From assembly GCA_035528375.1 (NCBI GenBank), contig DATKYS010000113.1, forward strand, positions 1-56,817: 56,817 nt of DNA, given 5' to 3'. Source of the stretch: a bacterium. Its GTDB lineage: Bacteria > RBG-13-66-14. Below are positions 12,569 through 54,897 of this stretch, in pieces (positions within the stretch are counted from its first letter, which is position 1; each line of letters opens with the position of its first letter). The position numbers and the translations under genes are program-made. The notes beneath the pieces are model-generated. The model searched no databases and was not told where the DNA came from. It was given only the letters and a program-made list of their open reading frames with translations.

Positions 12569-14533
12569 ATGAACCAATTCCGCCCAGCCAACCAGACCGA
12601 CGGACCCGCACGCAGGCGGCTCCGCATCGTTTTCATTCTGATGGGTGTGGCGCTGGTCGTCATCAGCGGGCGCCTGGTTCAGCTCCAGCTCGTCCGCGGC
12701 GCCGAGCTCGCCCAGCAGGCCCGCGGTCAGCAGGTGACGCGGGTTCCCCTGGTGGGGCTCCGGGGAACCATCTACGACCGGAACGGCATCCCGCTGGCCC
12801 TGGACCGGGAATCGCCCACCGCCTTCGCCGCCCCCAACGAAATCGAGCCCGAGGAGAAGGGGCGCGTGGCCGAGGAGCTGGCGGGGATTTTGGGGCTCTC
12901 CGCGGAGGACACGCGCCGGTTGCTCGAACGGGACTCCTACTTCGTATGGCTCTCCCGGCACCTCGACGCCGAAACCGCCGACAGACTGCGCCAGGCGTCC
13001 CTCCCCGGGGTGTACGTGAGGCAGGAGCCCTCACGGCTCTACCCGCTCGGGCGCACCGCGGCTCACGTGCTGGGCTTCGTGGGGATTGACCACCAGGGAT
13101 TGGAGGGGATGGAGCTCGCCTACGACGACCTCCTCTCGGGGGAACCGGGGTGGACGCTCAAGGTCCGGGACGCCCTCGGACGCCCGCTGTACCCCCTGGA
13201 CGAACCGAGCGCAGCGAGCTACGCCTCCGGCGAACCGAGCGAAGCGAGCTATGCCCCTGGCAAAACCCTGCAGCCGCCGCAGCGCGGCAACGACCTGCGC
13301 CTGACCATAGACTCCCGATTCCAGCACATCGTAGACCGCGAGCTGGCCTACGCCGTTGAGCGTTCGAACGGTCGGGGAGGCATGGCCGTGATGCTGGACC
13401 CCGACACCGGCGATGTGCTGGCCCTTTCCAACTACCCGTTCTTCGACCCGAACCGCTTCGGCGAGTACCCGTCCTGGGTCCGGCGCAACCGTATCGTGAC
13501 CGACGTGTACGAGCCGGGTAGCACGTTCAAGGTTTTCACCCTGGCCGCCGCCCTGGAGGAGGGGCTCGTTACACCCCAGACCGTCTTCGACACCCCCGGG
13601 GAAACCTACGTGACCGGTCGGCGGATCAGGGACAGTCTGCCCCACGACCCCCGCCTGACCGCGACCCAGATCATCGAACGGTCCTCCAACGTGGGCATCC
13701 TCCAGATCGGCCTGAAGGTCGGGCGGGATAAGCTGCGCGATTACCTGGGAAAATTCGGTTTCGGCGCGTTGACCGGCTTGGAGATACCCGGAGAGGTCCG
13801 GGGGATCCTCCGACCGGCCTCGGAGTGGTACCCCCTGGACACGGCCTGCGCCAGCTTCGGCCAGGGGGTGGCCGTGACGGCGATTCAGCTCGTCCGGGCC
13901 TACGCGGTCATCGCCAACGGGGGGTGGCTGGTCCAGCCGAGCATCGTGTCCCGCGAGAATTCGCGAAAACCGCGCCCCAGGCGGGTCATCAGCCCCGAAA
14001 CCGCCGCCGCCCTCCGCGAGATTCTCATCGGAGCGGTGGAGCGCGGGTTGGGCAAGGACGCCCGGGGATCGGGCTACACCATCGGGGGCAAGACGGGCAC
14101 CGCCCAGAAGGTCGGCGAGGGGGGCTATCTGGAGGGCAAGCACTACATCGCCAGCTTCATCGGCTTCGCCCCGGCACAGGACCCCGCGCTGGTCTTGTTG
14201 ATAATCGTAGACGAACCCAGGCCCATCTATGGTGGCGGACCGGTCTGCGGGCCGGCCTTCGCCAGAATCGTCAGACAGGTGCTGGCCCTCGAGGGGGTGT
14301 CGGCACCCGGGGGGGCGACGGCCCGTCTGGTGCGGGCCGACTCACCCGAGGTGCCGTGTTCCACGCCGTCGGCCGCCGGGAGCCCGTTGAACCTGTTGGG
14401 GTTGAACGCCCGGAAGGCCGCCGCGGTACTGGCCGCCAGGGGGGTGCCCGTGGAAATGCACGGAAGCGGTCGGGTGGTCGCGGTATCCACCGGCGGGGAC
14501 GCCCTGTCGGTCCAGCTGGCGGGCTCGAGGTGA
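12569..14533 (+). CDS. ftsI: Penicillin-binding protein 3 / FtsI with in-frame R1 repeat
   Basis: A 654-residue septal peptidoglycan transpeptidase. A single membrane anchor at about residues 18-36 is followed by a dimerisation domain and a transpeptidase domain with nucleophile Ser318 (S-T-F-K), S372-S-N374 and K508-T-G. The C-terminus is a PASTA-like segment (LLGLNARKAAAVLAARGVPV). Residues 211-232 (13199-13264) are two tandem copies of the dispersed repeat R1, placed in the loop before the NDLRLTIDSR strand, where they extend the protein without breaking frame. The start ATG at 12569 lacks a clear Shine-Dalgarno. The stop overlaps the murF start in GTGA. murE, which usually follows, is absent. 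Confidence 0.95.
   Translation: MNQFRPANQTDGPARRRLRIVFILMGVALVVISGRLVQLQLVRGAELAQQARGQQVTRVPLVGLRGTIYDRNGIPLALDRESPTAFAAPNEIEPEEKGRVAEELAGILGLSAEDTRRLLERDSYFVWLSRHLDAETADRLRQASLPGVYVRQEPSRLYPLGRTAAHVLGFVGIDHQGLEGMELAYDDLLSGEPGWTLKVRDALGRPLYPLDEPSAASYASGEPSEASYAPGKTLQPPQRGNDLRLTIDSRFQHIVDRELAYAVERSNGRGGMAVMLDPDTGDVLALSNYPFFDPNRFGEYPSWVRRNRIVTDVYEPGSTFKVFTLAAALEEGLVTPQTVFDTPGETYVTGRRIRDSLPHDPRLTATQIIERSSNVGILQIGLKVGRDKLRDYLGKFGFGALTGLEIPGEVRGILRPASEWYPLDTACASFGQGVAVTAIQLVRAYAVIANGGWLVQPSIVSRENSRKPRPRRVISPETAAALREILIGAVERGLGKDARGSGYTIGGKTGTAQKVGEGGYLEGKHYIASFIGFAPAQDPALVLLIIVDEPRPIYGGGPVCGPAFARIVRQVLALEGVSAPGGATARLVRADSPEVPCSTPSAAGSPLNLLGLNARKAAAVLAARGVPVEMHGSGRVVAVSTGGDALSVQLAGSR
13199..13264 (+). 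repeat. R1 repeat, two tandem 30-bp copies inside ftsI
   Basis: Two units with a period of exactly 30 bases (13201 and 13231), core CCGAGCGAAGCGAGC then CCCCTGGC or CCTCCGGC. They encode EPSAASYASG and EPSEASYAPG. Confidence 0.95.
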
Positions 14534-16086
14534 CGACCGCTCTCCAGGACCTTCTAATGCTCACACCGGTCAGGGGAGAGAAGGTGCGCGAGGATTACGG
14601 ACAGCTCAGAGCCGACGTGGGGGAGCCTCTCCCCCTGGGCCGACTGCTCGAATGGGCGGACGCCCGACTTTTGGGACCCCGGGGGGTCTTCGACCCACCG
14701 GTGGCGGGGGTCCTCGACGAGCCGGTGCGGGGGCTGGCCATAGACTCCCGGGCCCTCGCCGCCGGCGACCTCTTCGTCGCCCTGCCCGGCGAGCGCGCGG
14801 ACGGCCACCAGTTCCTCTCCGACGTCGCCGGTAAAGCCCTGGCCGCCCTGGTGGAAAGGCCCGACCCGGACCTGACGCTGACCCAACTGGTGGTCGAGAG
14901 CGTACCCCGGGCGCTTCTTTCCATCGCCGACGGATTCCGGCGGCGCTTCCCCGAGCTCACCGTCGTCGGCATCACCGGCTCCGTGGGGAAGACTACGACG
15001 AAGGACTACCTGGGCGCGGTCCTGGACGCCTTCGCGCCGACCATCGTGAGCCAGGGGAACATGAACACGGTATACGGCGTCCCGCTCACCCTCGCCCGCC
15101 TGCGCGGGGACACGGCCCTGGCGGTGCTGGAGATGGGGATGCAGTGGGCTGGTGAAATCGCCTCGCTGGCGGAGGTCGCCCGGCCGAGAATCGGCGTCGT
15201 AACCGCCGTCGGCCCGGCCCACCTGGAGTTCTTCTCCGACGTGCGGGCCATAGCCCTGGCCAAGGCCGAGTTGCTGCTGCAACTACCGCCCGACGGCGCG
15301 GCCGTCCTTCCCCTGGAGTGCGAGCACTTCCCGCTGCTGGCGGAACGCACCCCCTGCCCCGTGGTCACCTTCGGCCTGGTCGCCGGCAACTGCCGGGCCG
15401 AGGTGCGACCTACGCGGCTCGATGAGCGGCGCGCCGAAGGGAGCCGGTTCGAGGTGGTTTGGAACCCGCCAAAGGGAATCTTAGTCCCACCCGCGCGGTT
15501 CGAAATCGAGCTGCCCACCCCGGGCAGCCACCACGTGCTCTCCGCGCTGCGTGCGGCGGCCGCGGCCCTCGTCCTGGGCGTGCCGCCGGGGCTCATCGCC
15601 GAAAAGCTCGCCGGGGCGCGGATAACCCCCCTGCGGGGAGAGGTGTACCGCCGGGGTCTTCGACCCACCGGTGGCGGGGGCGGGCTGACCATCCTCGCCG
15701 ATACCTACAACGCCAACCCGCTGTCCATGAGCGCCGCCCTGGAAACCCTGGCCGGCCTCCCAGGTCGCCGGGTGGCGGTACTGGGCGACATGCTGGAGCT
15801 CGGCCCGACGGCGCCCCGGCTGCATGAAAGCGTCGGGGCCGAGGCGGCCAAGCGCGGAATCGCCGTGCTCGTGGCCGTGGGGGCGTTCGCGGAGGACATC
15901 GCCCGCGGCGCACGGGAGAATGGTCTCGGGGAAATATACACGGCGGCCGACCGCCATGAGGCTGGAAGGATTTTAAAGCGCGTGCTCCGGCCCGGCGACG
16001 TGCTCCTCGTCAAGGCCAGCCGGGCTCTGCGTCTGGATTTCCTGCTCGAGGACGACGCGCTCGAGGGGTACATCGAACCGAATTGA
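14530..16086 (+). CDS. murF: UDP-MurNAc-tripeptide:D-Ala-D-Ala ligase MurF with two R4 insertions
   Basis: A 518-residue cytoplasmic ATP-dependent ligase that adds D-Ala-D-Ala to UDP-MurNAc-tripeptide. The N-terminal domain has GLAIDSRALAAGDLFVAL, the central domain has the ATP loop GITGSVGKTTTK (Lys154), and ADTYNANPLSM is the family mark of the C-terminal half. The GTG at 14530 is chosen because it overlaps the ftsI stop (GTGA) and is the nearest in-frame start; ATG 14557 is the alternative. Two copies of repeat R4 (14684-14710 and 15654-15680) lie in the gene in different reading frames, giving residues about 52-61 and 375-384. Both are in loops before conserved motifs. An R1 pair follows the stop. 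Confidence 0.94.
   Translation: MTTALQDLLMLTPVRGEKVREDYGQLRADVGEPLPLGRLLEWADARLLGPRGVFDPPVAGVLDEPVRGLAIDSRALAAGDLFVALPGERADGHQFLSDVAGKALAALVERPDPDLTLTQLVVESVPRALLSIADGFRRRFPELTVVGITGSVGKTTTKDYLGAVLDAFAPTIVSQGNMNTVYGVPLTLARLRGDTALAVLEMGMQWAGEIASLAEVARPRIGVVTAVGPAHLEFFSDVRAIALAKAELLLQLPPDGAAVLPLECEHFPLLAERTPCPVVTFGLVAGNCRAEVRPTRLDERRAEGSRFEVVWNPPKGILVPPARFEIELPTPGSHHVLSALRAAAAALVLGVPPGLIAEKLAGARITPLRGEVYRRGLRPTGGGGGLTILADTYNANPLSMSAALETLAGLPGRRVAVLGDMLELGPTAPRLHESVGAEAAKRGIAVLVAVGAFAEDIARGARENGLGEIYTAADRHEAGRILKRVLRPGDVLLVKASRALRLDFLLEDDALEGYIEPN
14684..14710 (+). repeat. R4 repeat, copy 1 in murF
   Basis: A 27-base sequence identical to 15654-15680, with core TTCGACCCACCGGTGGCGG (CCACCGGTGG is palindromic). 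It reads GVFDPPVAG. Confidence 0.9.
15654..15680 (+). repeat. R4 repeat, copy 2 in murF
   Basis: Identical to 14684-14710 over 27 bases but read in another frame (GLRPTGGGG), just before the ADTYNANP motif. Confidence 0.9.
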
Positions 16087-16147
16087 TTCGCCGGGGCGTA
16101 GCTCGCTTCGCTCGGTTCGCCGGGGCATAACTAGCTTCGCTTCGTTT
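16087..16147 (-). repeat. R1 repeat, two tandem copies between murF and mraY
   Basis: Two copies in minus orientation beginning right after the murF stop, period 29 bases. They fill most of the gap before the mraY ribosome-binding site. Confidence 0.9.
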
Positions 16148-16166
16148 CCGGCCGAGGAGTAAACCG

Positions 16167-18881: not shown

Positions 18882-18893
18882 TGGGGGTGGAGG

Positions 18894-22404: not shown

Positions 22405-22405
22405 A

Positions 22406-23218: not shown

Positions 23219-23250
23219 CGCGGCTATCCCCCAAGCACAAGGGAGGGATT

Positions 23251-24493: not shown

Positions 24494-24527
24494 AAACGAA
24501 GCGAAGCGAGTTACGCCACCGGCGAAA
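24494..24527 (+). repeat. R1 repeat between ftsA and ftsZ
   Basis: One diverged copy in plus orientation (ACGAAGCGAAGCGAGTTACG then CCACCGGCGAA) in the 81-base gap. Confidence 0.85.
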
Positions 24528-26116: not shown

Positions 26117-26148
26117 AAACCGAGCGAAGCGAGCTATGCCCCCGGCGA
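26117..26148 (+). repeat. R1 repeat, single copy
   Basis: A close match to the R1 consensus in plus orientation (AAACCGAGCGAAGCGAGC then TATGCCCCCGGCGA). Confidence 0.9.
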
Positions 26149-26321: not shown

Positions 26322-26341
26322 AACTGCGCCCGAAGGGAAAA
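26322..26341 (+). repeat. 20-bp direct repeat, copy 2
   Basis: An exact copy of 25827-25846; it runs into the following R1 pair. Confidence 0.9.
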
Positions 26342-26402
26342 CGAAACGTAGCGAGGATTACCCCCCGGTAAACCGAGCGAAGCGAGCTGCGCCCCCGGCG
26401 AT
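26338..26402 (+). repeat. R1 repeat, two tandem copies before the PilZ gene
   Basis: The first copy is diverged (ACGAAACGTAGCGAGGATTA); the second is near consensus (AAACCGAGCGAAGCGAGC then TGCGCCCCCGGCGA). Confidence 0.85.
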
Positions 26403-31783: not shown

Positions 31784-32505
31784 TCGTTGTCGCCATACAC
31801 GGTGACCGGTTCCGGCATCTGCTCGATGGGCCGGAAGCGGCGGCGGTTGAGCCAGAGGTACAGCCCCCCGGCCAGGAAACCGCCGATGTGGGCGAACCAG
31901 GCCACGCCCGTATCCATCTCCGCCGTTATCGCCTGCCAGCCGCTGAAGAGCTGGGTGATGAACCAGAAGGGGAGCACGACGAAGGCCGGCAGACGGATGG
32001 CCCAGAAGATTATCACCAGCGGCACCAGGGTCAGGATGCGCGCCTTGGGAAAGAGGATCAGGTACGCCCCCAGCACCCCGGCGATGGCTCCCGAGGCCCC
32101 GATGATGGGGAAGGGGTTCACGGGGTTGGCGAGGAAGTGGACCGCCGTGGCCACGAGCCCGCACAGGACGTAGAACACCAGATAGCGGAAGTGGCCCAGC
32201 CGGTCCTCCACGTTGTCCCCGAAGACGAAGAGGAAGAGCATGTTCCCCACGACGTGGACCACGCTGCCGTGGAGGAACATCGAGACGAACGGGCTGTAGA
32301 GGAGCTTCAGGAAGCCGTAGTTTGCGATGGCCTGGGTGAACCCCACGGTGTAATCCGCGGGCACGAAGGCGTTCGCGTGGAGGACCCGCGAGAGCCGGTC
32401 CCCGATGACGAGTTCGAAGATGAAGACGGCGATGTTGATCGCGATGAGCGCGATGTTGACGTAGGGGAAGCTGCGGTGCTTGATGTCGTCCTTGAGCGGG
32501 ATCAC
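31780..32505 (-). CDS. Rhomboid-family intramembrane serine protease
   Basis: A 241-residue polytopic protein with about six membrane spans. The catalytic pair is visible: Ser138 in GASGAIAG and His206 in AHIGGFLAGG, with the oxyanion-side HVVGNMLFLFVFG (Asn88). Rhomboids cleave membrane proteins within the bilayer; the substrate is not predictable. The ATG at 32505 overlaps the stop of the upstream propeller gene by four bases, so the two form an operon. Typical bacterial length. Confidence 0.88.
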   Translation of the reverse strand: MIPLKDDIKHRSFPYVNIALIAINIAVFIFELVIGDRLSRVLHANAFVPADYTVGFTQAIANYGFLKLLYSPFVSMFLHGSVVHVVGNMLFLFVFGDNVEDRLGHFRYLVFYVLCGLVATAVHFLANPVNPFPIIGASGAIAGVLGAYLILFPKARILTLVPLVIIFWAIRLPAFVVLPFWFITQLFSGWQAITAEMDTGVAWFAHIGGFLAGGLYLWLNRRRFRPIEQMPEPVTVYGDND

Positions 32506-33497
32506 TCTTCACCCTCGTCGGGCTCGAGACGGTCGGTCTCCGGGGGATAGGCGGCGAAGAGACCCTCGCGCTCCGTGGCGACGAGGATGCGCCCGTCGGG
32601 GAGGAGGAGCGCCCCGCGCGCGGGGTAGGGGGAATCGGGCCACAGCCGCCAGTTCCGCCCGTCCGGGTCGGCGGAGTAGAGCCCGTCGGCCCGGATGCCG
32701 CAGGTGGTGACGAAGAGCCGTTTCCCCGCGAAGACCAGGTCGGAGACGTACTTGAATTCGGGATCGAGGCCGCGGAGCTTGTAGAAGCCGCCGTCCTCGG
32801 AGATGTAGAGCCCGCCCCACATCGTGCCGACGTAGAGCCGCCCGGTGTCCGGGACGTAGCGCAGGAGGGTAACCTCCGCGGCGTCCAGTGGCATCTCCGG
32901 AGTCCCCGCGACCGGCACCCAGCGCCGGGATACGCCCTCCTCACCGGCGAACTCGAGCAGCGTCCACAGCCCCTCGCCCAACGTGCCGGCGTACAGGGCG
33001 CCCTCCACGTCGAGGACCGCCGTGACCGCCACGTCCGGCAGGCCGGAAAGCTCCTCCCAGCCGGAGCCGGATTGCGCGTATACGACTCCCACGCCGCCGG
33101 CGAGCGTCCCGTCCCCGCCCGGGGCCAGGGACCAGATTGACCGTCCCTCCAGGCCCGCCGCACTCAATTTCCCGCTGTCCCAAACGTACACGCCCGAATC
33201 GGTGCCGATGATGAGCCCGCCGACCGCGCAGGCCAGGCAGTGAACGCTCATCCCTTCGGTGCCCGCCAGCCGACCCCAGGTGACCCCCCAATCGGAGCTG
33301 GAGTACACGCCGTCGCCGAGGGTGGCGAGGTAGAGGCTTTTGCCGTCCGACGCGAGGTTGCGCACCTGGTCCTCGGTGGGGCGGGAGAGGGCCTCCCAGC
33401 CGCCGAAGCGATCCGCGCAGGAGACGAGGAGGAAGAGGATGAGGGGGGCAAAACGGAGCGAAGCGAGTGATGCCCCGGCAAATCTGAGAGCGCGCAA
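32502..33497 (-). CDS. Beta-propeller-like lipoprotein whose signal peptide is made from repeat R1
   Basis: A 331-residue exported protein with BNR/photosystem-II-stability-factor-like propeller repeats: SDGKSLYLATLGDGVYSSSD, GTMWGGLYISEDGGFYKLRG, FVTTCGIRADGLYSADPDGR. The signal peptide ends in LFLLVSC, a plausible lipobox. The first residues, RFAGASLASLRFAP, are encoded by an R1 copy (33450-33482) read in the antisense direction, so the repeat forms the h-region entry of the signal. The TTG at 33497 follows GAGAGG at suitable spacing; there is no better start. It is coupled to the rhomboid gene. Function unknown. Confidence 0.75.
   Translation of the reverse strand: MRALRFAGASLASLRFAPLILFLLVSCADRFGGWEALSRPTEDQVRNLASDGKSLYLATLGDGVYSSSDWGVTWGRLAGTEGMSVHCLACAVGGLIIGTDSGVYVWDSGKLSAAGLEGRSIWSLAPGGDGTLAGGVGVVYAQSGSGWEELSGLPDVAVTAVLDVEGALYAGTLGEGLWTLLEFAGEEGVSRRWVPVAGTPEMPLDAAEVTLLRYVPDTGRLYVGTMWGGLYISEDGGFYKLRGLDPEFKYVSDLVFAGKRLFVTTCGIRADGLYSADPDGRNWRLWPDSPYPARGALLLPDGRILVATEREGLFAAYPPETDRLEPDEGEE
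33450..33482 (+). repeat. R1 repeat overlapping a lipoprotein signal peptide
   Basis: AAAACGGAGCGAAGCGAGTG followed by ATGCCCCGGCAAA, one copy in plus orientation, read on the minus strand by the 32502-33497 gene. Confidence 0.9.
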
Positions 33498-38788: not shown

Positions 38789-39613
38789 CTATCCGGCCCC
38801 GAAGAGCCGCAGCAGCTTCACGATGGTGTTCCGGAGCTCGTGGCGTCCGATGACCACGTCCACGAAGCCGTGCTCCTGGAGGAACTCGGCGCGCTGGAAC
38901 CCCGGCGGCAGCTTCTGCTTGATGGTCTGCTCGATGACCCGGGGGCCGGCGAAGCCCATCAGCGCACCGGGCTCCGCGATGTGCACGTCCCCCAACTGGG
39001 CGTAGGAGGCCATCACCCCGGCGGTGGTCGGGTCGGTGAGGACGACGAGGTAGGGCAGCCGGGCCTCGCGCAGACGGGCGCAGGCCGCCGAGCTCTTCGC
39101 CATCTGCATCAGTGACAGGATGCCCTCCTGCATCCGCGCCCCGCCCGACGTGCACACCGTCACCTGGGGGACCTTCAGCTTCAGCGCCCGCTCCAGCGAC
39201 CGCGTCACCTTCTCCCCCACCACCGTCCCCATCGAGCCGCCGATGAAGGTGAAGTCCATCACCGCCAGCGAAACCTTGATTCCGTCAATCGTCGCCAGGC
39301 CGCAGATGACCGCCTCGGTCTCCCCCGTCTTCGCCATCGTCTCGGCGATGCGCTGGGAGTAAGGCTTGCGGTCCACGAACTGCAGGGGGTCCAGCGTCTT
39401 GAGGCCCGTGTCGTGCTCCTCGAAACTTCCCTCATCCGCAAGCTGGCCGATGCGCTTCCGGCCGGGGACCTTGTGGTGGAAGTCGCACTTGGGGCAGACG
39501 AAGAGGTTCTCCTCGAGCTGCTTGGAGTAGAGGGTCTCGCCGCAGCTGGAGCACTTGAGCATCAGCCCGGTGGGGACGGACGGCCCGTGGCGTTCCTCGG
39601 TCCGCTCAATCAT
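38789..39613 (-). CDS. accD: Acetyl-CoA carboxylase carboxyltransferase subunit beta
   Basis: A 274-residue subunit of the carboxyltransferase that makes malonyl-CoA for fatty-acid synthesis. The N-terminal zinc ribbon is Cys21/Cys24/Cys40/Cys43 (CSSCGETLYSKQ...CPKCDFHH). The crotonase-fold core has VMDFTFIGGSMGTVVGEK, SGGARMQEGILSLMQM and GFAGPRVIEQTI. The ATG at 39613 follows CGAGG and matches the family start. The open frame continues 67 codons upstream, but those codons are R1 repeats and not gene. accA is not in the window. Confidence 0.95.
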   Translation of the reverse strand: MIERTEERHGPSVPTGLMLKCSSCGETLYSKQLEENLFVCPKCDFHHKVPGRKRIGQLADEGSFEEHDTGLKTLDPLQFVDRKPYSQRIAETMAKTGETEAVICGLATIDGIKVSLAVMDFTFIGGSMGTVVGEKVTRSLERALKLKVPQVTVCTSGGARMQEGILSLMQMAKSSAACARLREARLPYLVVLTDPTTAGVMASYAQLGDVHIAEPGALMGFAGPRVIEQTIKQKLPPGFQRAEFLQEHGFVDVVIGRHELRNTIVKLLRLFGAG

Positions 39614-39643
39614 GAGCCGCACCTCGTCGTGTATCGGGGTGAT

Positions 39644-39818
39644 TTGCCGGGGGCATTTTTGCCGCTTCGCTCGGTTCGCCGGGGAGCATAACCTCGTTTT
39701 GCCGGGGCATAACTCGCTTCGCTTCGTTGCGATTGTAGCAGGATTTTTGCCGGGGGCATAGCTCGGTTTGCCAGAGGCATAGCTCGCTTCGCTCGGTCCG
39801 ACTCGCCGGGGCATAACT
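39644..39818 (-). repeat. R1 repeat cluster, six full or partial copies upstream of accD
   Basis: Copies in minus orientation begin near 39644, 39676, 39699, 39747, 39769 and 39802. Several lack the GCTTC unit or the 3' half. They fill the gap between accD and the PorV-like gene. Confidence 0.9.
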
Positions 39819-43633: not shown

Positions 43634-43672
43634 GTCAACCTCCGGGGGAGGATGGGGAAGTGGTGTGAGAAG

Positions 43673-44110: not shown

Positions 44111-44153
44111 GGGCCTCCTCCTCAACGTGTGGTCAAGTATACCACGGCGGTTT

Positions 44154-45149: not shown

Positions 45150-45224
45150 CGGTCCGGGCCGGCAGGGAACGTTGAAGGCGGAACTAGGATTGTACTTCAC
45201 GAATCGAGACCTGTTAATAACTCG

Positions 45225-45248
45225 AAAACCGAGCGAAGCGAGCTATGC
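45225..45248 (+). repeat. R1 repeat, truncated copy upstream of the Nudix gene
   Basis: AAAACCGAGCGAAGCGAGCT then ATGC; the CCCCGGCGAA half is missing. Confidence 0.8.
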
Positions 45249-45274
45249 GTGGTAAAACGCACGAATTGGAGATG

Positions 45275-45770: not shown

Positions 45771-45791
45771 TTACTGATGTGTTCGCGTCAA
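45763..45791 (-). promoter_or_regulatory. Candidate promoter for the structured non-coding region
   Basis: On the minus strand TTGACG (45786-45791), a 17-bp spacer and CATACT (45763-45768). Confidence 0.4.
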
Positions 45792-45806
45792 GTCCTAAGT
45801 CAGTTG

Positions 45807-46637
45807 CTACTCCGGCCTGTGCGCGAGGAAGGCCCGGGCGCCGGACCCCTCGCCGTACGGGCGGACCTCGACCCCGGTGAAGCCCGCCTCCTCCATGAGG
45901 GCGGTCAGCCCCTCCGCGGTGAAGTGGTGCAGGTGGTGGTCTTTCGACCCGCGCAGGAGCCGTTTGAACGACCGCAGGGGATGCCGGAGCGCGGAGCCCA
46001 GACGTTTCCCGAAGGGCCTCCGGAGCGTTCTCTCCTCACCCGAAAGCCCCGTGCAGTGCAGGATGACCAGCGCGCGTCCGCCCGGCTTCAGGCAGCGGCG
46101 CCCCTCGACGAGCACCCGCCGGGGGTCCAGGGCGTGGTCCAGCGTCGCGGCGCAGACGAATTCGTCGAAAACCGCGTCCCGGTAAGGCAGTTCCTCGCCG
46201 AAGCCGGCCACGAAGGTCATCGGACGTTCCAGCGCCCCGCCGTACAGCTCCCGGTAGACGGGCGGGGGTCCGGTGAGGAAACGCTCCAGGGCGGGGTCGT
46301 GGACGACGAAAAGGGAATCGCCGCCCGCGCTCCACCACATCCGCAAGAGCCCCCAGCCGCCGCCCACGTCCAGGACGTCCCCCTTCAGAGGCCCCCGGTG
46401 ATCGAAGAGCTCGGCCAGGCGGGCGATACTCTCGGCGACGTACTCCCGGTTCACCCCGGCCTGCTCCCGGGTCCAGTCGAGGAACTCGCCCTGAAAGGAG
46501 CCCCAGCGCCGCCATAGGTCGTCGTCCACCTCGGGCAGCCGGTCGTCCAGCAGGCGGACGAGTGTCGGCGCCCGGGACAGGTCGTAGCGCGGCACCTCTT
46601 CATCCCGGAACAGCGAAATCACCGATCGGTCACTCAC
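45807..46637 (-). CDS. Class I SAM-dependent methyltransferase (type 11)
   Basis: A 276-residue methyltransferase with the SAM-binding motif I VLDVGGGWGLLR, motif II region EELPYRDAVFDEFVCAATLD and post-motif LKPGGRALVILHC. The substrate cannot be told from sequence. The GTG at 46637 follows GGAGGCCGCCC and overlaps the stop of the upstream transglycosylase gene by eight bases, so the two are coupled. That hints at an envelope-related role. Confidence 0.82.
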   Translation of the reverse strand: MSDRSVISLFRDEEVPRYDLSRAPTLVRLLDDRLPEVDDDLWRRWGSFQGEFLDWTREQAGVNREYVAESIARLAELFDHRGPLKGDVLDVGGGWGLLRMWWSAGGDSLFVVHDPALERFLTGPPPVYRELYGGALERPMTFVAGFGEELPYRDAVFDEFVCAATLDHALDPRRVLVEGRRCLKPGGRALVILHCTGLSGEERTLRRPFGKRLGSALRHPLRSFKRLLRGSKDHHLHHFTAEGLTALMEEAGFTGVEVRPYGEGSGARAFLAHRPE

Positions 46638-49494
46638 GGGCGGCCTCCTCCTCAATCACGGCCCCCTCGCCCACGAAGGCCTCTTCCTCCAACTGCTCGG
46701 CATCACCGGAAATCTCAGCCTCTTCGGCCAGCTCGGCCCGCGTGACGCCCCGGGAGGCCAGCATATCGAACGCCCGCTCGCGGAAAATATACTCGCCGGA
46801 CTTCCAGAACAGAGGGACGTTGCGCTCCATGCCGCCGACGTAACCGATGACCTCTTTCTCGAGCTTCATGAGCGCCGCCCGGGCCCAGTCGCCGCCCGCG
46901 CCCCGGTTTATCCAGAACGGCCCCAGCATCCGGAATATCTGGTACAGCCGCTCCTCGCCGCCCGGGTAGCTCTCGCAGGGGAAGTGGTACTCCCCGGCGA
47001 TGTACCGGCGGAGGTCGTAGGCGAAACGGATGAGGAAAGGCTCTATGTCCCCGCCGCAGGGGCCGAAGAAGTAGTCCAGCCCCGGCAGACCGGGGTAATC
47101 CATGTCGAACTCCGGTGGACCGCTCCACGGGAAATCGGCGGGCACCGGTGTTTCTTCGGGCTCCAGGATAATCTCGCCCTCCTCGGTCACCCCCTCCACC
47201 GCGAGCTCCTCCTCGATGCGCCCGACGGCCTCGGCCGCGGCGAGCTGCTGCCTGTAGTACGCCGCCTCGTTCACCCCCGAGGGCGGCGGCGGAATCGTCG
47301 AGTAAACGTCGCGCAGGATGACCTTGACCCCGTAGGGGCCCGCGTTGTACATCGCCCCGGCCAGCTTCAGCCGCAGGAGACTGGCCCACTCGGTGGTGAA
47401 ATCGAAGCAACCGCCGGGAAGGAGGTTGTCCTGAAAACGGGGGTCGAAACCCCAGCGGCTCTGCTCGGCCAACAGCCCCTTCAGGTAGCTGATGCCCACC
47501 TGGAGGTTCAAATCGGCGATGTATCGCAGGTCGTAGCGCGTTTCCTGGGGCAGGGTGCCGAAGGGTACCCTTCGCCTGACGCCGGCGTCATCGTACTCCA
47601 GGAGGTAATTCCCCCCTTTGACAACGGCGCCGGTGAGCTGCATGTACCCCGTGGCCGAGCCGTGGCCGTAGGCGGCGCGGTAGCTGCGTCCCGAGCCCAG
47701 CACGTGCATCAGGCCGCACTCCTGGTAGCTCACCGCCAGGCAGAAGGCGCGGAAGGCCTCGTCTGAGATGTCGTAGCGCTTGGTGTAATCCAACCCGGCC
47801 GCGCGGTCATCCGGGGAGAAGAAACCGGGGTGGGGCCGACCGTCGGGACGCTCGGAATTTATCCTGGCGCAGATGTCCACGAACCGGTGCCACAGGCTGC
47901 GGGACGGGTTGTCCGCGTCGTAGGTCGGGATGTTGTCGAAGTCGGCCAGGGTCCACCTTCCGGGGAGACCGGGCAGCTCGAACCGGATGCTCTGGAGCCG
48001 GGCGAAGGTCTCCGGGCCGACGACGCGGGCGAGATACGCCCGGGGCACCGCCCCCCCCTCCCGACCTCCCCCCAGGTTCGAGTAACGGGCCAGGAAGGAC
48101 TCCTCGGTTGGCGCCGGATAGGGGAACCGCTCCCGGAAGGCGGCGAGCAGACGGACCAGCTCGGCGTCGAAGCGGCCGGAGGAATCACGGCAGGAATCGA
48201 ACTGCGCGCCGTCTATCTCGGCGGCGGTGGTGAGCGCCAGGTTGAGCTGACGCTTCAGGTAGGCCAGAACCGGGCTGTCATACCCTACCGCGTCGGTCAC
48301 GCCGGGCTGGTAGTAGAGGCAGGGGAAATCCTCGCGCACGAGGACGATTCGCGCCGGGCCAAGCGTCGGCGTGAGGGCGCGAGGGGTCTTGTGGCCGAAG
48401 AGGGGACGACCATCGGCGTCGGTGAGGGCGACCAGGACGAACGGCTCGCCGTCGGGGCCGTCGGGAGAGTACGGACCAGGCAGGACCGCAAGGTGCGCCA
48501 AACGCGATTCATCGTTCCAGTCGCAGGTGCTGAAACGGCCGTCAGGCGACTCCACCACAAGCTCGACCACGTAATCCCCGTAGGGAACCGGTTGCCCCCG
48601 GAACTCACCCTGGTTGGCCACGCCGTTCCACCGGAAGACGTTCACCGCGAGGCGTCCCAGGCGGTGCCGGTCCCCGTAATCGCTCACCGGCGCGTCGGTG
48701 TCGGCGGAGAAGACCAGGTTTAACCTACGGCTCGGCCTACGCTCGCGGGAAGGCGAAAGACGCCAGACGTTCAACGTGACCCGGTCGGAGGGATCGGGGA
48801 TGGGGTCCAGGTGGTATCGGATGGGGTGGTCGGGGCCGTCGGAAGGAGTAGGGATGCAGCGGAGGTCGGCCTCGCGCACGTTGGCCACCAGGTAGCCGGA
48901 GTTGTCCCAGTACGGGATGGTGTTCTCGGCGAACCCCCTGTTCCAGGTGTCGTATACGCTGGCCGTGAGCGGTTTTCCCTCGCCGGCCACGTAGAAGGTG
49001 TAGCGGTGGTTCTCCAGGTCGAGCCGCTGGGCGCGCAATAGACGACCGCCCAGGACCACCGAGGGCCGCAGGGAGTCGAACTCGCCCGACACGCTGGCGA
49101 ACTGGGCGTCGGCCAGGCCACCGAACCGGAAGCGGTAAACCCCGCTCACCGTGATTTTAAAAAGCCGGCCCTGGGCCAGCGGCATGGAGGTTTGGACGAC
49201 CTCCCCCGAGGACGGGATGGCGAGCTCGAAGGCGTCGAAGGAGGGAACGGGGATGAGGAAGAGGACGACCGCCACGAAAAGACCGAGGAGCAGGAAGCCT
49301 TTGTCCACCTTGAACTCGGTACGCTCCCGCCTCCACTCGGCGGCCAGGAAGCGACCGAGGCGGTGGTAAGCGGCCCCGAGAGCGCGGCGGAAGCGGCGAA
49401 AAATACCGGGCTTTTTGCCGGAGCTTAACTCGCTTCGCTTCGTTTCGGGCGCCGGTTCCGTCGCGGAGGGCTGTTCGTGAAAGGCCGATTCCAT
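46630..49494 (-). CDS. Large membrane-anchored lytic transglycosylase-like protein
   Basis: A 954-residue protein. The N-terminal cytoplasmic part (1-65) is basic and includes KRSELSSGKKPG, encoded by an R1 copy. One transmembrane segment lies at about 66-82. A long beta-rich ectodomain follows, with an R2 insertion at about residues 249-260. A lysozyme-like SLT domain occupies about 580-720: SYQECGLMHVL (Glu592 as catalytic acid), GYMQLTG, NLQVGISYLKGLL, AGAMYNAGPYG. The C-terminal 230 residues are acidic. It probably cleaves peptidoglycan glycan strands, but the family and partner are unclear. The ectodomain is not one I recognise. Confidence 0.75.
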   Translation of the reverse strand: MESAFHEQPSATEPAPETKRSELSSGKKPGIFRRFRRALGAAYHRLGRFLAAEWRRERTEFKVDKGFLLLGLFVAVVLFLIPVPSFDAFELAIPSSGEVVQTSMPLAQGRLFKITVSGVYRFRFGGLADAQFASVSGEFDSLRPSVVLGGRLLRAQRLDLENHRYTFYVAGEGKPLTASVYDTWNRGFAENTIPYWDNSGYLVANVREADLRCIPTPSDGPDHPIRYHLDPIPDPSDRVTLNVWRLSPSRERRPSRRLNLVFSADTDAPVSDYGDRHRLGRLAVNVFRWNGVANQGEFRGQPVPYGDYVVELVVESPDGRFSTCDWNDESRLAHLAVLPGPYSPDGPDGEPFVLVALTDADGRPLFGHKTPRALTPTLGPARIVLVREDFPCLYYQPGVTDAVGYDSPVLAYLKRQLNLALTTAAEIDGAQFDSCRDSSGRFDAELVRLLAAFRERFPYPAPTEESFLARYSNLGGGREGGAVPRAYLARVVGPETFARLQSIRFELPGLPGRWTLADFDNIPTYDADNPSRSLWHRFVDICARINSERPDGRPHPGFFSPDDRAAGLDYTKRYDISDEAFRAFCLAVSYQECGLMHVLGSGRSYRAAYGHGSATGYMQLTGAVVKGGNYLLEYDDAGVRRRVPFGTLPQETRYDLRYIADLNLQVGISYLKGLLAEQSRWGFDPRFQDNLLPGGCFDFTTEWASLLRLKLAGAMYNAGPYGVKVILRDVYSTIPPPPSGVNEAAYYRQQLAAAEAVGRIEEELAVEGVTEEGEIILEPEETPVPADFPWSGPPEFDMDYPGLPGLDYFFGPCGGDIEPFLIRFAYDLRRYIAGEYHFPCESYPGGEERLYQIFRMLGPFWINRGAGGDWARAALMKLEKEVIGYVGGMERNVPLFWKSGEYIFRERAFDMLASRGVTRAELAEEAEISGDAEQLEEEAFVGEGAVIEEEAARE
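48716..48750 (-). repeat. R2 repeat inside the transglycosylase gene
   Basis: Plus-strand text AGGTTTAACCTACGGCTCGG followed by CCTACGCTC. The gene reads it as RERRPSRRLNL. Same frame as both copies in the phosphatase gene. Confidence 0.9.
49415..49445 (-). repeat. R1 repeat inside the transglycosylase N-terminus
   Basis: One copy in minus orientation (TTGCCGGAGCTTAACTCGCT then TCGCTTCGTTT), read as KRSELSSGK. Confidence 0.88.
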
Positions 49495-49509
49495 TAAAAC
49501 ACTCTGAGC

Positions 49510-50793: not shown

Positions 50794-51844
50794 GTCCGAA
50801 ACCCTTCGAGGGTAAGGTGGCCGGTTTATCGCCTCCGAGGGCGACAGCCGCCCCGTGCTTCAGGTCGTAATCCGATACCAGGAGGTTTAACCTACGGCCC
50901 GGCCTACGCCCGTCGTCGCCCAGGTGCGCCAGGAGCGTCTCGAGGACCAGGGCCCCGGCGACGATAATCTCCGCGCGTCGCTCGTCGGTCGGCAGCAGCC
51001 GCTTACGTTCGGCGAGGGGAACACCCGCCAGGCGTTCGATGAGCGCCGCCAGGTCGCCCCGGCTCAACGGCGTGCCCTGGATGACCAGGGGCAGATACTC
51101 ATTCAAGCCCAGGTGCAGCGCCGCCAGGGCGGTCGCCGTGCCGCCGGAAGCGACGACGGGTAAATCGTGGGTATCCATAGGCAACCGGCTGAACACGGCC
51201 CGGACACCATCCCTGAGCTCCCCCATCTCCCCGGGCGCGGGAGGGTCGGTGTGGAAATGACGGCCGGTGAGGTTTATCGCCCCCAGGGGGAAGGATCGGG
51301 TGAATAGGTTTAACCTACGGCTCGGCCTGCGCTCCCGACCGCCTTTTGGGGGCAAGGGGTTTAAACCCCTCGTCTCCTCACATCCCCACCAGGAAAACTC
51401 CGTGGATCCGCCCCCCACGTCCACGGCCAGATACACCCGCCCGTCCAGGTCCAGACAGCGTAGCCCTTCGTCCACCCCCACCCGTGTCAGCCAGGCCTCG
51501 TCGGGACCGGAGAGGAGCGTGAGCTCCACGCCCCAGCGGGATTTCAGCGCGTCCGCCAGAGTCTCGACGCCGGGCAGCTCGCGGGCGAAGTGGGTGGCGA
51601 CGGCCAGGGTGCGGTTTACTCCCAGCTCACGCCCGCGTGCGATCGCCTCCCGTGTGGCCGCCAGCGTGTTTTCGACGGCCTCCATCGAAACACGGCCGTC
51701 CTCCCCCGGCCTGCCGAGCCCGGTCGAGCGCCCGCCGCTCTCCACGGGCCCCAACGGCGCGTCCGTCCCCCGCGAGTCCACCCGGTCCACCACGAGCCAG
51801 CGCAGGGAGTTGGAGCCGTAATCCAGAACGAGGATGCGGCTCAT
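50783..51844 (-). CDS. Ppx/GppA-family phosphatase carrying three repeat insertions
   Basis: A 353-residue protein of the exopolyphosphatase / pppGpp phosphatase family, with the actin-like fold. LVLDYGSNSLRWLVVD is phosphate-1 and AVDVGGGSTEFSW is phosphate-2; RSFPLGAINLT and SDYDLKHG are further family marks. Between phosphate-2 and RSFPLG about 27 residues come from R3 (ETRGLNPLPPKGG) and R2 (RERRPSRRLNL), and DDGRRPGRRLNL near the C-terminus is another R2 copy. The start ATG at 51844 overlaps the PfkB gene stop by four bases. Which substrate it uses cannot be told. Confidence 0.85.
   Translation of the reverse strand: MSRILVLDYGSNSLRWLVVDRVDSRGTDAPLGPVESGGRSTGLGRPGEDGRVSMEAVENTLAATREAIARGRELGVNRTLAVATHFARELPGVETLADALKSRWGVELTLLSGPDEAWLTRVGVDEGLRCLDLDGRVYLAVDVGGGSTEFSWWGCEETRGLNPLPPKGGRERRPSRRLNLFTRSFPLGAINLTGRHFHTDPPAPGEMGELRDGVRAVFSRLPMDTHDLPVVASGGTATALAALHLGLNEYLPLVIQGTPLSRGDLAALIERLAGVPLAERKRLLPTDERRAEIIVAGALVLETLLAHLGDDGRRPGRRLNLLVSDYDLKHGAAVALGGDKPATLPSKGFGHGT
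50883..50911 (-). repeat. R2 repeat, C-terminal copy in the phosphatase gene
   Basis: AGGTTTAACCTACGGCCCGG then CCTACGCCC; read as RRPGRRLNL. Confidence 0.88.
51306..51340 (-). repeat. R2 repeat, central copy in the phosphatase gene
   Basis: AGGTTTAACCTACGGCTCGG then CCTGCGCTCCCGACC; read as RERRPSRRLNL. R3 follows twelve bases later. Confidence 0.9.
51352..51374. repeat. Palindromic repeat R3 in the phosphatase gene
   Basis: CAAGGGGTTTAAACCCCTCG is palindromic around TTTAAA and is the counterpart of 28443-28463. The gene reads ETRGLNPLP from it; a comparable peptide is possible from the copy at 6025. Confidence 0.8.
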
Positions 51845-52800
51845 CGGTGAAATACCCGGGGAACGCTGGTCCCCGTCTGGGCCACCACGTCGGCCGCCGC
51901 CCAGGAGGCGAGCGCCGTCGTCTCCGCGGGTGTCAGGCCCGCGGCCAGGGCCAGCCCCAGCGCCGCGGTCACGGTGTCGCCGGCCCCGGTGTGGTCGCGG
52001 ACCAAATGACGCGGGCAGAGAGCGGTGGTTTTCTCCACACCTCCGTCGTGGTAGAGCTCGAGGCCGTCGTCGCCGAGGGTCAGGCAGAGCCAGAGCAAAC
52101 CGAGCTCGCGCCGGCAGCGATCGCAGAGTGCGCCCCAGTCGGAACCCTCCGAACCGACTGTGCTCCCCCAGAGGCGCACCTCCCGCGCGTTGGGCTTCAG
52201 GCAGGTCGCACCGGCCAGGTTTTCGAGGGGGTTGCGCGTATCGCCCGCCCAGGGCCGCCCCGATTCCCGCACCAGGGCTATCATTTCCGGAAAAACCGCG
52301 CCGTTGGAGTAGTCGGAGACGACCACGGCGTCGCTCCGCGGCAGCCTTTCACGGACCGCCTCCAGCAGCCGCCCCGCGGTGTCGCGGTCGAGCGGCGACC
52401 TCTGTTCGTGGTACGAGTGGAAGACGTGTTGGGCGTCCGGCTCCGTGGCGACCAGCTTGAGCCGGTCCGTGGTGGGTCGGTCGGGGGAAATCACCCCGGC
52501 GAAGGTGACGCCCCGCTCCCGGAGCAGGCCCGACAGGCGCTCGCCGGCGGAATCGTCGCCCAGGACGCCGACCACGGTCACCCTCCCCCCCAGGGCGGCC
52601 GCGTTGACCGCCACGTTGGTCGCCTGCCCCGGGGCAAAGACCCGCTCCCTCTCGTCGAGGCAGGCCACCGGGGCTTCCCGGGCGATGGCGCCGACCGGCC
52701 CGTAGCGGTACTCGTCCAGGCACGGGTCGCCGACGACCAGGACCTCGCGTCCGGCGATTTTCGCGAGCAACCGTTCCGGGGGACTTGGCATCTCGGACAT
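51841..52800 (-). CDS. PfkB-family carbohydrate kinase, heptose-kinase-like
   Basis: A 319-residue ribokinase-fold kinase. EREVFAP-type region VFAPGQATNVAVNAAALGG and the C-terminal DHTGAGDTVTAALGLALAAG (catalytic Asp in GAGD) are intact. Overall it resembles the kinase half of HldE/RfaE, which phosphorylates heptose 7-phosphate for LPS core, but the family has many sugars and the adenylyltransferase half is missing. A strong promoter (52810-52838) ends right at the first ATG (52809), so transcription should start below it; the ATG at 52800 or 52791 is the real start, possibly on a leaderless mRNA. It heads the operon with the phosphatase and glgC. Confidence 0.78.
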   Translation of the reverse strand: MSEMPSPPERLLAKIAGREVLVVGDPCLDEYRYGPVGAIAREAPVACLDERERVFAPGQATNVAVNAAALGGRVTVVGVLGDDSAGERLSGLLRERGVTFAGVISPDRPTTDRLKLVATEPDAQHVFHSYHEQRSPLDRDTAGRLLEAVRERLPRSDAVVVSDYSNGAVFPEMIALVRESGRPWAGDTRNPLENLAGATCLKPNAREVRLWGSTVGSEGSDWGALCDRCRRELGLLWLCLTLGDDGLELYHDGGVEKTTALCPRHLVRDHTGAGDTVTAALGLALAAGLTPAETTALASWAAADVVAQTGTSVPRVFHR

Positions 52801-52809
52801 CACGGCCAT

Positions 52810-52838
52810 ATTATAAGGGCGGACGGCCGCATAGGCAA
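52810..52838 (-). promoter_or_regulatory. Promoter of the PfkB-phosphatase-glgC operon
   Basis: On the minus strand TTGCCT (52833-52838), a 17-bp spacer and a perfect TATAAT (52810-52815). Its -35 lies nine bases from the -35 of the divergent promoter. Confidence 0.72.
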
Positions 52839-52846
52839 GGCTTGCA

Positions 52847-52875
52847 TTGACAGCCCCAGGCGGGGATGCTATTGT
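52847..52875 (+). promoter_or_regulatory. Promoter of the prenyltransferase operon
   Basis: A perfect TTGACA (52847-52852), a 17-bp spacer and TATTGT (52870-52875). A second TTGACA lies at 52886-52891. Confidence 0.65.
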
Positions 52876-52913
52876 GCGTTGTTGTTTGACAGACGCAACC
52901 GGAATCGGGACCC

Positions 52914-53831
52914 ATGACGTTCAAACTGCTCATTCGCACCCTGAGGGCGCCTTTCTTCACCGCCACCACCTCGGCCGCCCTCCTGGGCAACCTGGTGGCC
53001 CTCTGGCGGACGGGGACGCTCGATCCCTGGATGCTCCTCCTTTCCCTGGCGGGCATCGCCGCCCTGAACGCCGGCGTGAACACCGCCAACGATTTCTTCG
53101 ACTCGGTGTCGGGCAACGACGAGGCCAACCGGTACTACTCCCCCTTCAACGGCGGCTCCCGGGTCATCCAGGACGGCCTGGTCAGCCGACGCACCGTGGG
53201 CCTCGTATCCCTGGTTTGTTTCTTGATCGCGGGGGGCCTCGGCGCGGTCCTCTGGCTCCTGACGCCGGGAAACTGGGTCCTCTACCTGGGCCTCTTCGGC
53301 CTCGTCACCGGGTTCTTCTACGCGGCTCCGCCGTTCAAGCTGGGCTACCGCGGCCTGGGGGAGCTCATCGTGGCCCTGGACGTGGCCCTCCTGCCGGTCC
53401 TGGGCGGCTACTACGTCCAGGCCGGGACCTTCGATTCCGGCGCCTTCTACGCCGGTATCGCCGCCGCCTTTCTCATCCTGGGCGTCATCTGGGTGAACCA
53501 GATTCCCGACATCGAGGCCGACGCCGCGGTGGGGAAACGCACCCTGGTCGTCCGCCTTGGCGCCCGCCGCTCGCGGACCGCCTTCGCCGTCATCGTCGCG
53601 GCGGTGTACGTCTCTTCGCTCGTCCTGGCGCTGCTGGGCGTACTGCCCTACTGGACACTCCTCGTTTTCCTCACGCTGCCGCTGGCCGTCGGCGCCGTCC
53701 GGGGCGTTTTTTCGAACTACGACCAGCCGCGGGCTCTCGTGCCCGCCGAGGGGAAGACGGTGCAGCTCCAACTGGCCGGCAACCTGGCCCTGTCCCTGGG
53801 TTTCGCCCTGGCCGTGTTAATCCCTTTGTAA
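52914..53831 (+). CDS. menA: UbiA-family prenyltransferase, MenA-like
   Basis: A 305-residue polytopic membrane enzyme. The first Asp-rich motif is NTANDFFDSVSGND and the second is DIEADAAVGKRTLVVRLG, as in MenA and other UbiA enzymes that attach a polyprenyl tail to an aromatic acceptor. About eight membrane spans are seen. The next gene, a polyprenyl diphosphate synthase ten bases away, would supply the tail, which supports a role in menaquinone synthesis. Specificity for dihydroxynaphthoate is inferred. Confidence 0.83.
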   Translation: MTFKLLIRTLRAPFFTATTSAALLGNLVALWRTGTLDPWMLLLSLAGIAALNAGVNTANDFFDSVSGNDEANRYYSPFNGGSRVIQDGLVSRRTVGLVSLVCFLIAGGLGAVLWLLTPGNWVLYLGLFGLVTGFFYAAPPFKLGYRGLGELIVALDVALLPVLGGYYVQAGTFDSGAFYAGIAAAFLILGVIWVNQIPDIEADAAVGKRTLVVRLGARRSRTAFAVIVAAVYVSSLVLALLGVLPYWTLLVFLTLPLAVGAVRGVFSNYDQPRALVPAEGKTVQLQLAGNLALSLGFALAVLIPL

Positions 53832-53841
53832 GGCCCGACCC

Positions 53842-54861
53842 GTGAAACTCGCCACCGCCAAGGACCTCCTGAACGACGAGCTGCTCCGCCTGGAGGAGCG
53901 GCTGCTGGATATAATCGCCGGCGAGTTCGAGCTGGTGAGCACCATGGCGTCCCGCCTCGTCGCCGCCGGCGGAAAGCGGCTGCGGGCCATTCTGGTCCTC
54001 CTCGCGGCCCGGGGCGGAGGAGAGGACGGCGGCCCGCGGGACACGGCGGTGGAGGTGGCGGCGGTCTGCGAGCTGGTCCACCTGGCCACCCTGATCCACG
54101 ACGACGTCATAGATCAGTCCACGACGCGCCGCGGCGTACCCACGATTCACACCGACCTCGGAAACCAGATTACGGTGCTGATGGGGGATCACCTCTACGC
54201 CCGGGCCATCCGCCATCTCATCACCGCCACGGGGAGGGCCGACCTGGTCCGCATTCTGGCGAGCACGGTGGCGGACCTCTGCGAGGGGGAAATAAGGCAG
54301 CTCAACGAGACGCGCTGGCTGGGGCGCGTCGTCCGCCCCGACGCCGGCGGGAGCTTCGCGGTGCGTTTCGAGCCCATGGAGCGGGAGTACCTGGAGATAA
54401 TCGCCCGCAAGACGGCGGGCTTCTTCGGCGCCTGCGGGGAGATGGGCGCCCTCCTGGTCGGCGGGGGCGAGACCGTCGCGAGGATGCGCGGCTACGGCTT
54501 CAACCTCGGCATGTCCTTTCAGATAACCGACGACCTGATGGACTACGCCGGCGCCCGGGAGGTCACCGGCAAGGACGAGGGGAACGACCTCGCCGCGGGG
54601 AGGCTGACCCTGCCCCTCATCCACGGCCTGCACCACGACGAGCACGGCCGCGAGCTCCTCGGCCTTCTGAGCCTGGACGGCGGGGGCCTGAGAAAACGGG
54701 TCGCCGAGCTCCTGGATCGCACCGGCTCGCTGGGCTACGCCACCCAGGTCGCCCGGGGCTACGCCCGACGCGCCCGGGAAATCGCCCGGTCGCACCCCCA
54801 CCCCGAGGTCGGGCCCGTGCTCGTGGAGTTGGCCGAGGAGGTGTTGACCCGGAAGGTGTGA
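53842..54861 (+). CDS. Polyprenyl diphosphate synthase
   Basis: A 339-residue trans-isoprenyl diphosphate synthase. The first Asp-rich motif DDVID is at residues 87-91, preceded by LIH, and the second, QITDDLMDY with GKDEGNDLAAGRLTLPL, at about 228-250. AGGKRLRAILVLLA is the substrate-binding stretch. It likely makes the quinone side chain (length not predictable). The start is GTG at 53842, ten bases after menA, with a weak AAGG; the two genes form an operon. Confidence 0.92.
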   Translation: MKLATAKDLLNDELLRLEERLLDIIAGEFELVSTMASRLVAAGGKRLRAILVLLAARGGGEDGGPRDTAVEVAAVCELVHLATLIHDDVIDQSTTRRGVPTIHTDLGNQITVLMGDHLYARAIRHLITATGRADLVRILASTVADLCEGEIRQLNETRWLGRVVRPDAGGSFAVRFEPMEREYLEIIARKTAGFFGACGEMGALLVGGGETVARMRGYGFNLGMSFQITDDLMDYAGAREVTGKDEGNDLAAGRLTLPLIHGLHHDEHGRELLGLLSLDGGGLRKRVAELLDRTGSLGYATQVARGYARRAREIARSHPHPEVGPVLVELAEEVLTRKV

Positions 54862-54864
54862 GGG

Positions 54865-54897
54865 TTTGCCGGGGGCATAGCTCGCTTCGCTCGGTTC
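54865..54897 (-). repeat. R1 repeat after the polyprenyl synthase gene
   Basis: A full consensus copy in minus orientation starting four bases after the stop codon (TTTGCCGGGGGCATAGCTCG then CTTCGCTCGGTTC). Confidence 0.92.

Follow-up and report, generated by a model that had tools for sequence, protein, structure and literature searches.

Introduction

Small dispersed repeats (SDR) of 21–27 bp occur in Nostoc and its relatives, where Elhai et al. reportedly described them in 2008, and an RNA intermediate has reportedly been suggested for their spread. Insertion sequences (IS) of the IS200/IS605 type carry subterminal hairpins, are preceded on the 5′ side by a fixed sequence matching their own 3′ end, and have derivatives that are single-stranded DNA miniature inverted-repeat transposable elements; their transposases are not known to duplicate the target. 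Here we describe R1, a 30-bp interspersed repeat in a 56,817-nucleotide stretch of bacterial DNA that we call the window. The window is contig C113 of a Candidatus Coatesbacteria genome (genus RBG_13_66_14; 2.63 Mb in 144 contigs). It is syntenic with a contig of another member of the genus, G002.

Comparably small elements are known from other settings. SDR5 is reported to insert precisely within HIP1 (cited in PMC4390886). The yeast mitochondrial GC42 cluster has a putative 2-bp AG target duplication with a single AG at its empty sites, and an RNA intermediate has been discussed for it (PMC4478555). The same paper cites Paquin (2000) for double-hairpin elements in the mitochondria of Allomyces (PMC4478555).

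Results

R1 is a recently mobile repeat with an AA target

The R1 unit has the form AA-CCGAGCGNAGCGAGCTAYGCCNNNGGCR-AA. We compared R1 sites among three members of the genus (G000, G001, and G002), using about 0.44, 0.46, and 0.64 Mb of sequence, respectively, in stretches mostly picked for containing R1. In 124 site comparisons, the site was empty in the other species 87 times (about 70%) and filled 37 times. For clusters with a single copy, the net insertion length peaked at exactly 30 bp (18 cases, derived from about 12 independent sites), and no other value occurred more than twice. In an independent indel count on alignments of the three species (434,044 columns), a length of exactly 30 bp again stood out as an isolated peak, with 17 events compared to 2–9 at each of the other lengths between 23 and 34 bp (9 at 24 bp and at most 6 elsewhere). 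Eleven of the 17 indels fit the R1 pattern, and at least four of the remaining six are diverged R1. When windows were chosen at random, 512 of 591 comparisons exhibited no length change, and +30 was the most frequent non-zero change.

At the cleanest junctions, AA occurs once in the empty site, and the sequence of the filled site is AA-[CCGAG...GGCR]-AA. Examples of empty junctions are GCGCG-AA-TCTCG, TACTG-AA-GGGCC, and GGGGTTT-AA-ACCCC; single-AA empty junctions were found for L217:11670, L204:13738, and L215:7656 in G002 and for L268:1236 and L260:11268 in G001. With a search pattern that did not require AA, this dinucleotide directly preceded CCGAG on the 5′ side in 152 of 154 copies. These junctions would fit either insertion of a 28-bp core accompanied by a 2-bp AA duplication or insertion of a 30-bp unit after AA without duplication.

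The genome-wide counts come from pattern searches, and the detailed analyses were made on selected stretches of the genomes. The window's genome has 58 matches to a 19-base R1 core with up to two mismatches allowed, and three other members of the genus have 242, 141 (G002), and 9 (G003). These counts are far above chance; reversed-pattern controls were near zero. The same core was found 0 times in 94 other genomes, among them three further genera from the same family and seven further members of the phylum, and a 21-base core had no exact match in viral contigs. Within the searched genomes, R1 is thus restricted to one Coatesbacteria genus, in which its copy number is very uneven. The sharp 30-bp peak, the single-AA empty sites, and the lack of copies elsewhere indicate that R1 is mobile. 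The first-pass annotation, made from the window alone, had raised mobility as a possibility, and the checks it proposed support this: counts exceed chance by far in this and sister genomes, clean empty sites exist in relatives, and most sites are not conserved in place among sister species. R1 has moved recently and is among the smallest mobile genetic elements known.

One strand of R1 is predicted to form two mini-hairpins

Conservation and covariation among copies suggest that one R1 strand folds as two mini-hairpins, GCGNAGC with a GNA loop (hairpin 1) and TGCC-NNN-GGCA (hairpin 2). Hairpin 2 had a T-A outer pair in 42 of 80 distinct full copies, a C-G pair in 30, and a mixed one in 7 (Fisher p ~4e-14). 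Double changes filled 23 cells in hairpin 2, compared to 9.3 in shuffles (0 of 500 shuffles reached this number). Across 60 distinct copies, 97.1% of cells were paired, versus 93.9% after shuffling and at most 46% with slid partners; the p-values take no account of relatedness between copies. Covariation is uninformative for hairpin 1 (C-GA-GC-GNA-GC-GA-G), since it is nearly invariant. Only the middle base of its loop varies freely (A in 53, T in 12, C in 11, and G in 4 of 80 copies) between nearly fixed neighbors, which fits the expectation for a GNA loop. DNA mini-hairpins with a GNA loop are extraordinarily stable when they have two or more G-C pairs, and GCGAAGC melts at 78°C (PMC4686876). 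Some R1 copies carry TGC-GAA-GCA or TGC-GTA-GCA as hairpin 2, and these are also GNA loops.

R1 inserts into itself and rides on other palindromic repeats

R1 units are frequently nested, and in 49 of 55 cases the inner unit sits at the internal AA of the outer one, 9 or 10 bases in. Because the inner unit is usually followed by C rather than G, part of these arrays could have arisen by unequal recombination between AACCGAGC and AAGCGAGC.

Other R1 copies occupy hairpin loops. Loops of perfect stems of at least 7 bp contained 56 of 227 R1 clusters, compared to 53 of 4560 control AA sites (1.2%). The stems belong to two palindromes, B (GACAAGGGGTTTAAACCCCTTGTC) and A (GTAGGGCGGGGA...TCCCCGCCCTAC). 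R1 entered a pre-existing palindrome B at L260:11268 and L259:11390, each with a net gain of 30 bp, and in G003 all R1 copies in the examined loci sit inside palindrome B. Palindrome B is itself a mobile repeat: a 64-bp composite of B and R1 at L192:10341-10372 (G000) is cleanly missing from G001, where the flanks are identical at 35 of 35 positions.

Palindrome A resembles the repetitive extragenic palindrome (REP) of local genes for REP-associated tyrosine transposases (RAYTs). In G001, the REP beside the RAYT gene L125 contains R1 in its GCGTAGC form, and the orthologous RAYT gene in G003 has an empty REP. R1 can therefore hitch-hike on REPs, and REP spread driven by RAYTs can multiply it. 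By profile search, one of the seven RAYT loci in the genus has R1 nearby, and this copy lies within the REP. At L122, L124, and L127 (G001 and G002), REPs of the classical GTAG type flank the RAYT genes on both sides, and each RAYT has a REP of its own.

R1 is mainly intergenic and also inserts in frame

R1 is mainly intergenic. With crude gene calls, 172 of 228 clusters fell between genes, in sequence that is ~82% coding, and 56 fell inside open reading frames (ORFs), many of which adjoin uncertain gene starts. In the analyzed stretches of G000, G001, and G002, the R1 sense strand tended to follow gene direction, both between co-directional genes (70:39, p 0.004) and inside ORFs (40:16, p 0.002), in statistics that share these crude calls and include shared sites that are not independent.

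The first-pass annotation had three window genes containing R1 in frame. This is secure for FtsI/PBP2, in which the R1 peptide reads EPSAASYASG-EPSEASYAPGK; the window orthologue has two R1 copies, those of G001 and G002 have one each, and those of G003 and G006 have none. For ORF 46630-49494 the claim is plausible and depends on the start codon. In G002 the same protein contains a different R1 in frame (L129:11093). The claim is doubtful for the AccD ORF (38789-39814), where the R1 array lies upstream of the Zn-ribbon (residues 87–110) and probably upstream of the true start codon.

R1 sometimes inserts within essential genes and leaves them unbroken. In G001, MurC carries ten residues that are lacking in G000 and G002 (EPSEASYASGK), RecG of G002 holds a decapeptide identical to the MurC insert, and a 965-residue G002 protein contains another. 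Most sense copies within genes use the PSEASYAPGK frame. In G001, a 72-bp composite of palindrome B and R1 (24 codons) lies within a long ORF at L277:6790-6821 and is lacking in G000. At L204:13738-13769 in G002, a LeuD-like gene, which encodes an aconitase C-terminal domain (KGRAFKFGDD), has R1 at its start, and an in-frame ATG within R1 could provide a new start codon.

R1 units in the window

A profile search recovered 18 units in the window, counting full, partial, and degenerate ones (Table 1). Their quality is uneven, and about 13 are full. R1 was found at every position at which the first-pass annotation had placed it, in both orientations and in tandem with a period near 30. The six copies reported at 39643-39818 turned out to be more heterogeneous, comprising two full units, a 34-bp variant, a 20-bp short unit, and two partial units. 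A 15-base core with up to two mismatches matched nine times in the window, compared to 0.70 expected, and none of 100 shuffles reached nine. The only Rfam matches were three tRNAs, and no family matched R1. The window, around the division and cell-wall cluster, seems rich in R1 (at 10–55 kb), with about 10 R1 clusters in its 57 kb versus 58 core matches in the 2.63-Mb genome. A 98-bp tandem repeat at 2902-3104 (2.1 copies, 95% identical) is not related to R1.

Table 1. R1 units and the gene for FtsI in the window
Feature	Position	Strand	Context
ftsI / penicillin-binding protein gene	12569..14533	+	PBP_dimer and Transpeptidase domains; R1 in inter-domain linker
Two head-to-tail R1 units (13205-13234, 13235-13264; AA before each)	13203..13264	+	In frame in FtsI/PBP2
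Two R1 units, head to tail	16087..16146	-	Immediately past Mur ligase stop codon; 59-bp insertion compared to G001
R1 unit, AACGAAGCG... variant	24495..24526	+	Between ftsA and ftsZ; present in G002, lacking in G001
R1 unit	26118..26148	+	3′ of tRNA-Val and tRNA-Asp genes
Degenerate R1 unit	26341..26371	+	Profile score 2.2 bits
R1 unit	26371..26401	+	Tandem with the degenerate unit 26341..26371; upstream of PilZ-domain gene
R1 unit	33452..33482	+	Close to start of ORF 32502-33497 (-); shared with G001, absent from G002 (exactly 30 bp)
R1 variant, 34 bp	39643..39676	-	Part of array upstream of accD
Partial R1 unit	39675..39692	-	Profile search
Full R1 unit, AACGAAGCG... variant	39698..39728	-	Profile search
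Short R1 unit, 20-21 bp, lacking first 9-10 bp	39746..39765	-	Nested insertion also yields such right halves
Full R1 unit	39767..39797	-	Profile search
Partial R1 unit	39803..39818	-	Profile search
R1 with changed second hairpin (TGCG...CGCA)	45227..45262	+	Upstream of NUDIX gene
R1 unit	49414..49444	-	Residues 17-27 of ORF 46630-49494 (-), given correct ORF start
R1 unit	54865..54896	-	4 bp past polyprenyl synthetase stop codon

Candidate enzymes in the host genomes

Genes for single-tyrosine (Y1) transposases, a class of HUH enzymes, are present in all four genomes that contain R1. A search for reverse transcriptases (RVT_1, PF00078) found none in G000–G003 and was positive in four other Coatesbacteria and three control genomes, making movement at the DNA level more likely. 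No parent insertion sequence with R1-like ends was found among within-genome repeats of at least 150 bp in ~1.5 Mb of sampled genus sequence, which comes from fragmented assemblies of the metagenomic kind that tends to lose such elements.

Discussion

R1 most closely resembles the Nostoc small dispersed repeats and the yeast mitochondrial GC clusters. Compared to the Nostoc repeats, R1 is of similar size class (28–30 versus 21–27 bp) and likewise restricted to one clade. As in SDR-type repeats, R1 is a dispersed repeat of 20–30 nt that moved recently, its predicted hairpin shows compensatory changes, and its copies lie both within other repeats and within one another. R1 differs in having a host from another phylum (Coatesbacteria), an AA target, a GNA mini-hairpin, in-frame genic insertions, and no recognizable reverse transcriptase. 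R1 shares with IS200/IS605 elements its hairpins, an AA on the 5′ side equal to the AA at its 3′ end, and the presence of Y1 genes in the genome; unlike them, it has no direct link to a TnpA, and no parent with R1 ends was found in the ~1.5 Mb sampled. With the GC clusters and double-hairpin elements R1 has in common tiny GC-rich hairpins and a 2-bp target that is present once when the site is empty and on both sides when it is filled, and like the GC clusters its units merge in tandem. The GC clusters, however, are mitochondrial, somewhat longer, different in sequence, and use an AG target, whereas R1 resides at AA in a bacterial chromosome whose host has RAYT genes.

Two other families, and one kind of recombination site, were set aside. 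REPs and REPINs, which are associated with RAYTs (PMC3116915), are like R1 small non-autonomous hairpin repeats of bacterial genomes. In contrast to them, the R1 consensus lacks the GTAG motif, which the REPs of the same genomes have, and forms no inverted doublet; R1 also occurs within genes and lies beside a RAYT gene only through insertion into its REP. The missing motif and the copies in ftsI, murC, and recG rule out that R1 is a REP. The first-pass annotation had likened R1 to Rickettsia palindromic elements, and in-frame insertion into protein genes, seen for R1 in FtsI, MurC, and RecG, is the one point of likeness that stands; size, structure, host, and sequence all differ. Rickettsia palindromic elements are ~150 bp long (PMC10969869) and consist of one palindrome, whereas R1 has a 28-bp core, adds 30 bp, and forms two separate mini-hairpins, so size and structure rule out membership in that family. 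A reading as an integron attC-like site was dropped, as size and context are lacking.

R1 is mobile, has defined ends and an AA target, nests in itself, and rides on other repeats. As to how it moves, we tentatively favor, as something short of probable, a non-autonomous micro-element with a 28-bp core that is mobilized at AA in trans, with an HUH enzyme as the best candidate. One part of this is shown by the pairs of empty and filled sites: the 28-bp core (CCGAGCGNAGCGAGCTAYGCCNNNGGCR) inserts at an AA dinucleotide, which leaves AA at either end and lengthens the site by 30 bp. The folded single strand would be cut at its AA ends and joined to an AA exposed as single-stranded DNA, at a replication fork or in a hairpin loop. 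The enzyme acting in trans may be an HUH transposase (Y1/RAYT-type) of the host genome, the best candidate and as yet unproven. R1 spreads on its own into intergenic AA sites, occasionally into genes in frame, and into its own terminal or internal AA; it is also carried along in the loops of other mobile palindromic repeats, RAYT-associated REPs among them. Its 30-bp length and stop-free sense frames make insertions in genes tolerable. The fuller version of this proposal, a DNA-only micro-transposon whose whole substrate, a 28-nt strand with two hairpins, is cut and joined at AA by a RAYT-type HUH enzyme in trans and which jumps into genes, loops, and itself, is possible and, taken as a whole, doubtful. 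We dropped one argument for a role of the replication fork, namely that the R1 top strand lies on the C-rich strand 134:91, because genes in these genomes share this lean toward the C-rich strand and R1 runs in the direction of genes.

Several observations weigh against mobilization by a Y1 or RAYT enzyme acting on a folded strand. The presence of Y1/RAYT genes does not track R1 number, and no enzyme has been linked to R1 alone. GTAG-type REPs of their own accompany the RAYT genes. In G002, which has 141 R1 copies in a genome 75% complete, the single Y1/RAYT gene found has an in-frame stop. G003 contains close relatives (~80% identity) of the G001 RAYT whose gene adjoins R1, yet only nine R1 copies, and Y1 genes are found in Coatesbacteria that lack R1 as well. 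The AA flanking R1 at either end could represent a 2-bp target duplication, which IS200/IS605 enzymes are not known to leave. The folding energy of the isolated unit is unremarkable (z about -0.5); nearest-neighbor energy models may undervalue GNA loops.

Some of these points would suit another DNA enzyme, such as a DDE transposase or recombinase whose 2-bp AA target becomes duplicated. Both the resemblance of the doubled AA, single at empty sites, to a target duplication and the independence of R1 copy number from the presence or number of RAYT genes favor it, but R1 has no inverted repeats at its termini, and neither a long repeat nor an IS with R1-like ends was found in ~1.5 Mb of sampled sequence, DDE families not having been searched genome-wide; we regard this as somewhat unlikely. 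R1 might instead need no dedicated enzyme, if template switching or capture of short hairpins during replication or repair used AA microhomology to set the ends. Such passive capture could account for the very short microhomology at both ends, the frequent tandem and nested arrays, and the preference for hairpin loops. It should, however, leave ragged ends, whereas R1 ends are uniform and the insertion length is sharply 30 bp; conservation of sequence and structure among non-orthologous copies also speaks against it, which makes it distinctly unlikely.

Spread through an RNA intermediate, to which the tendency of the R1 sense strand to follow gene direction (70:39 and 40:16) would point, is improbable: RVT_1 was not found in G000–G003, and selection can explain the bias within genes because one antisense frame contains a stop. 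Least credible of all is an immobile functional site conserved as a regulator, terminator, or recombination or uptake signal. The mostly intergenic location and alignment with genes are what such a site would show, but most R1 sites are empty in sister species, copy number ranges from 9 to 242 within one genus, and copies lie within ftsI, murC, and recG; we strongly disfavor this explanation.

Ever since the Nostoc repeats and the yeast GC clusters, it has been asked how repeats of 20–40 bp, which are too small to code for anything, spread through genomes. R1 is such an element in a second, unrelated bacterial phylum, with exact ends, an AA target, and dozens of pairs of empty and filled sites between close species. 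No published description of it was found in a search limited to open-licence literature. R1 combines a covarying hairpin with a DNA-type GNA hairpin, in hosts with no recognized reverse transcriptase, which narrows the route to DNA and yields a specific, testable prediction. If mobilization by a RAYT-type enzyme is correct, few transposable elements with defined ends would be smaller than R1, and RAYT function would reach beyond REPs. Insertion of R1 also shows how ten-residue inserts arise in proteins such as FtsI, MurC, and RecG, and R1 offers a test case for the movement of tiny elements.

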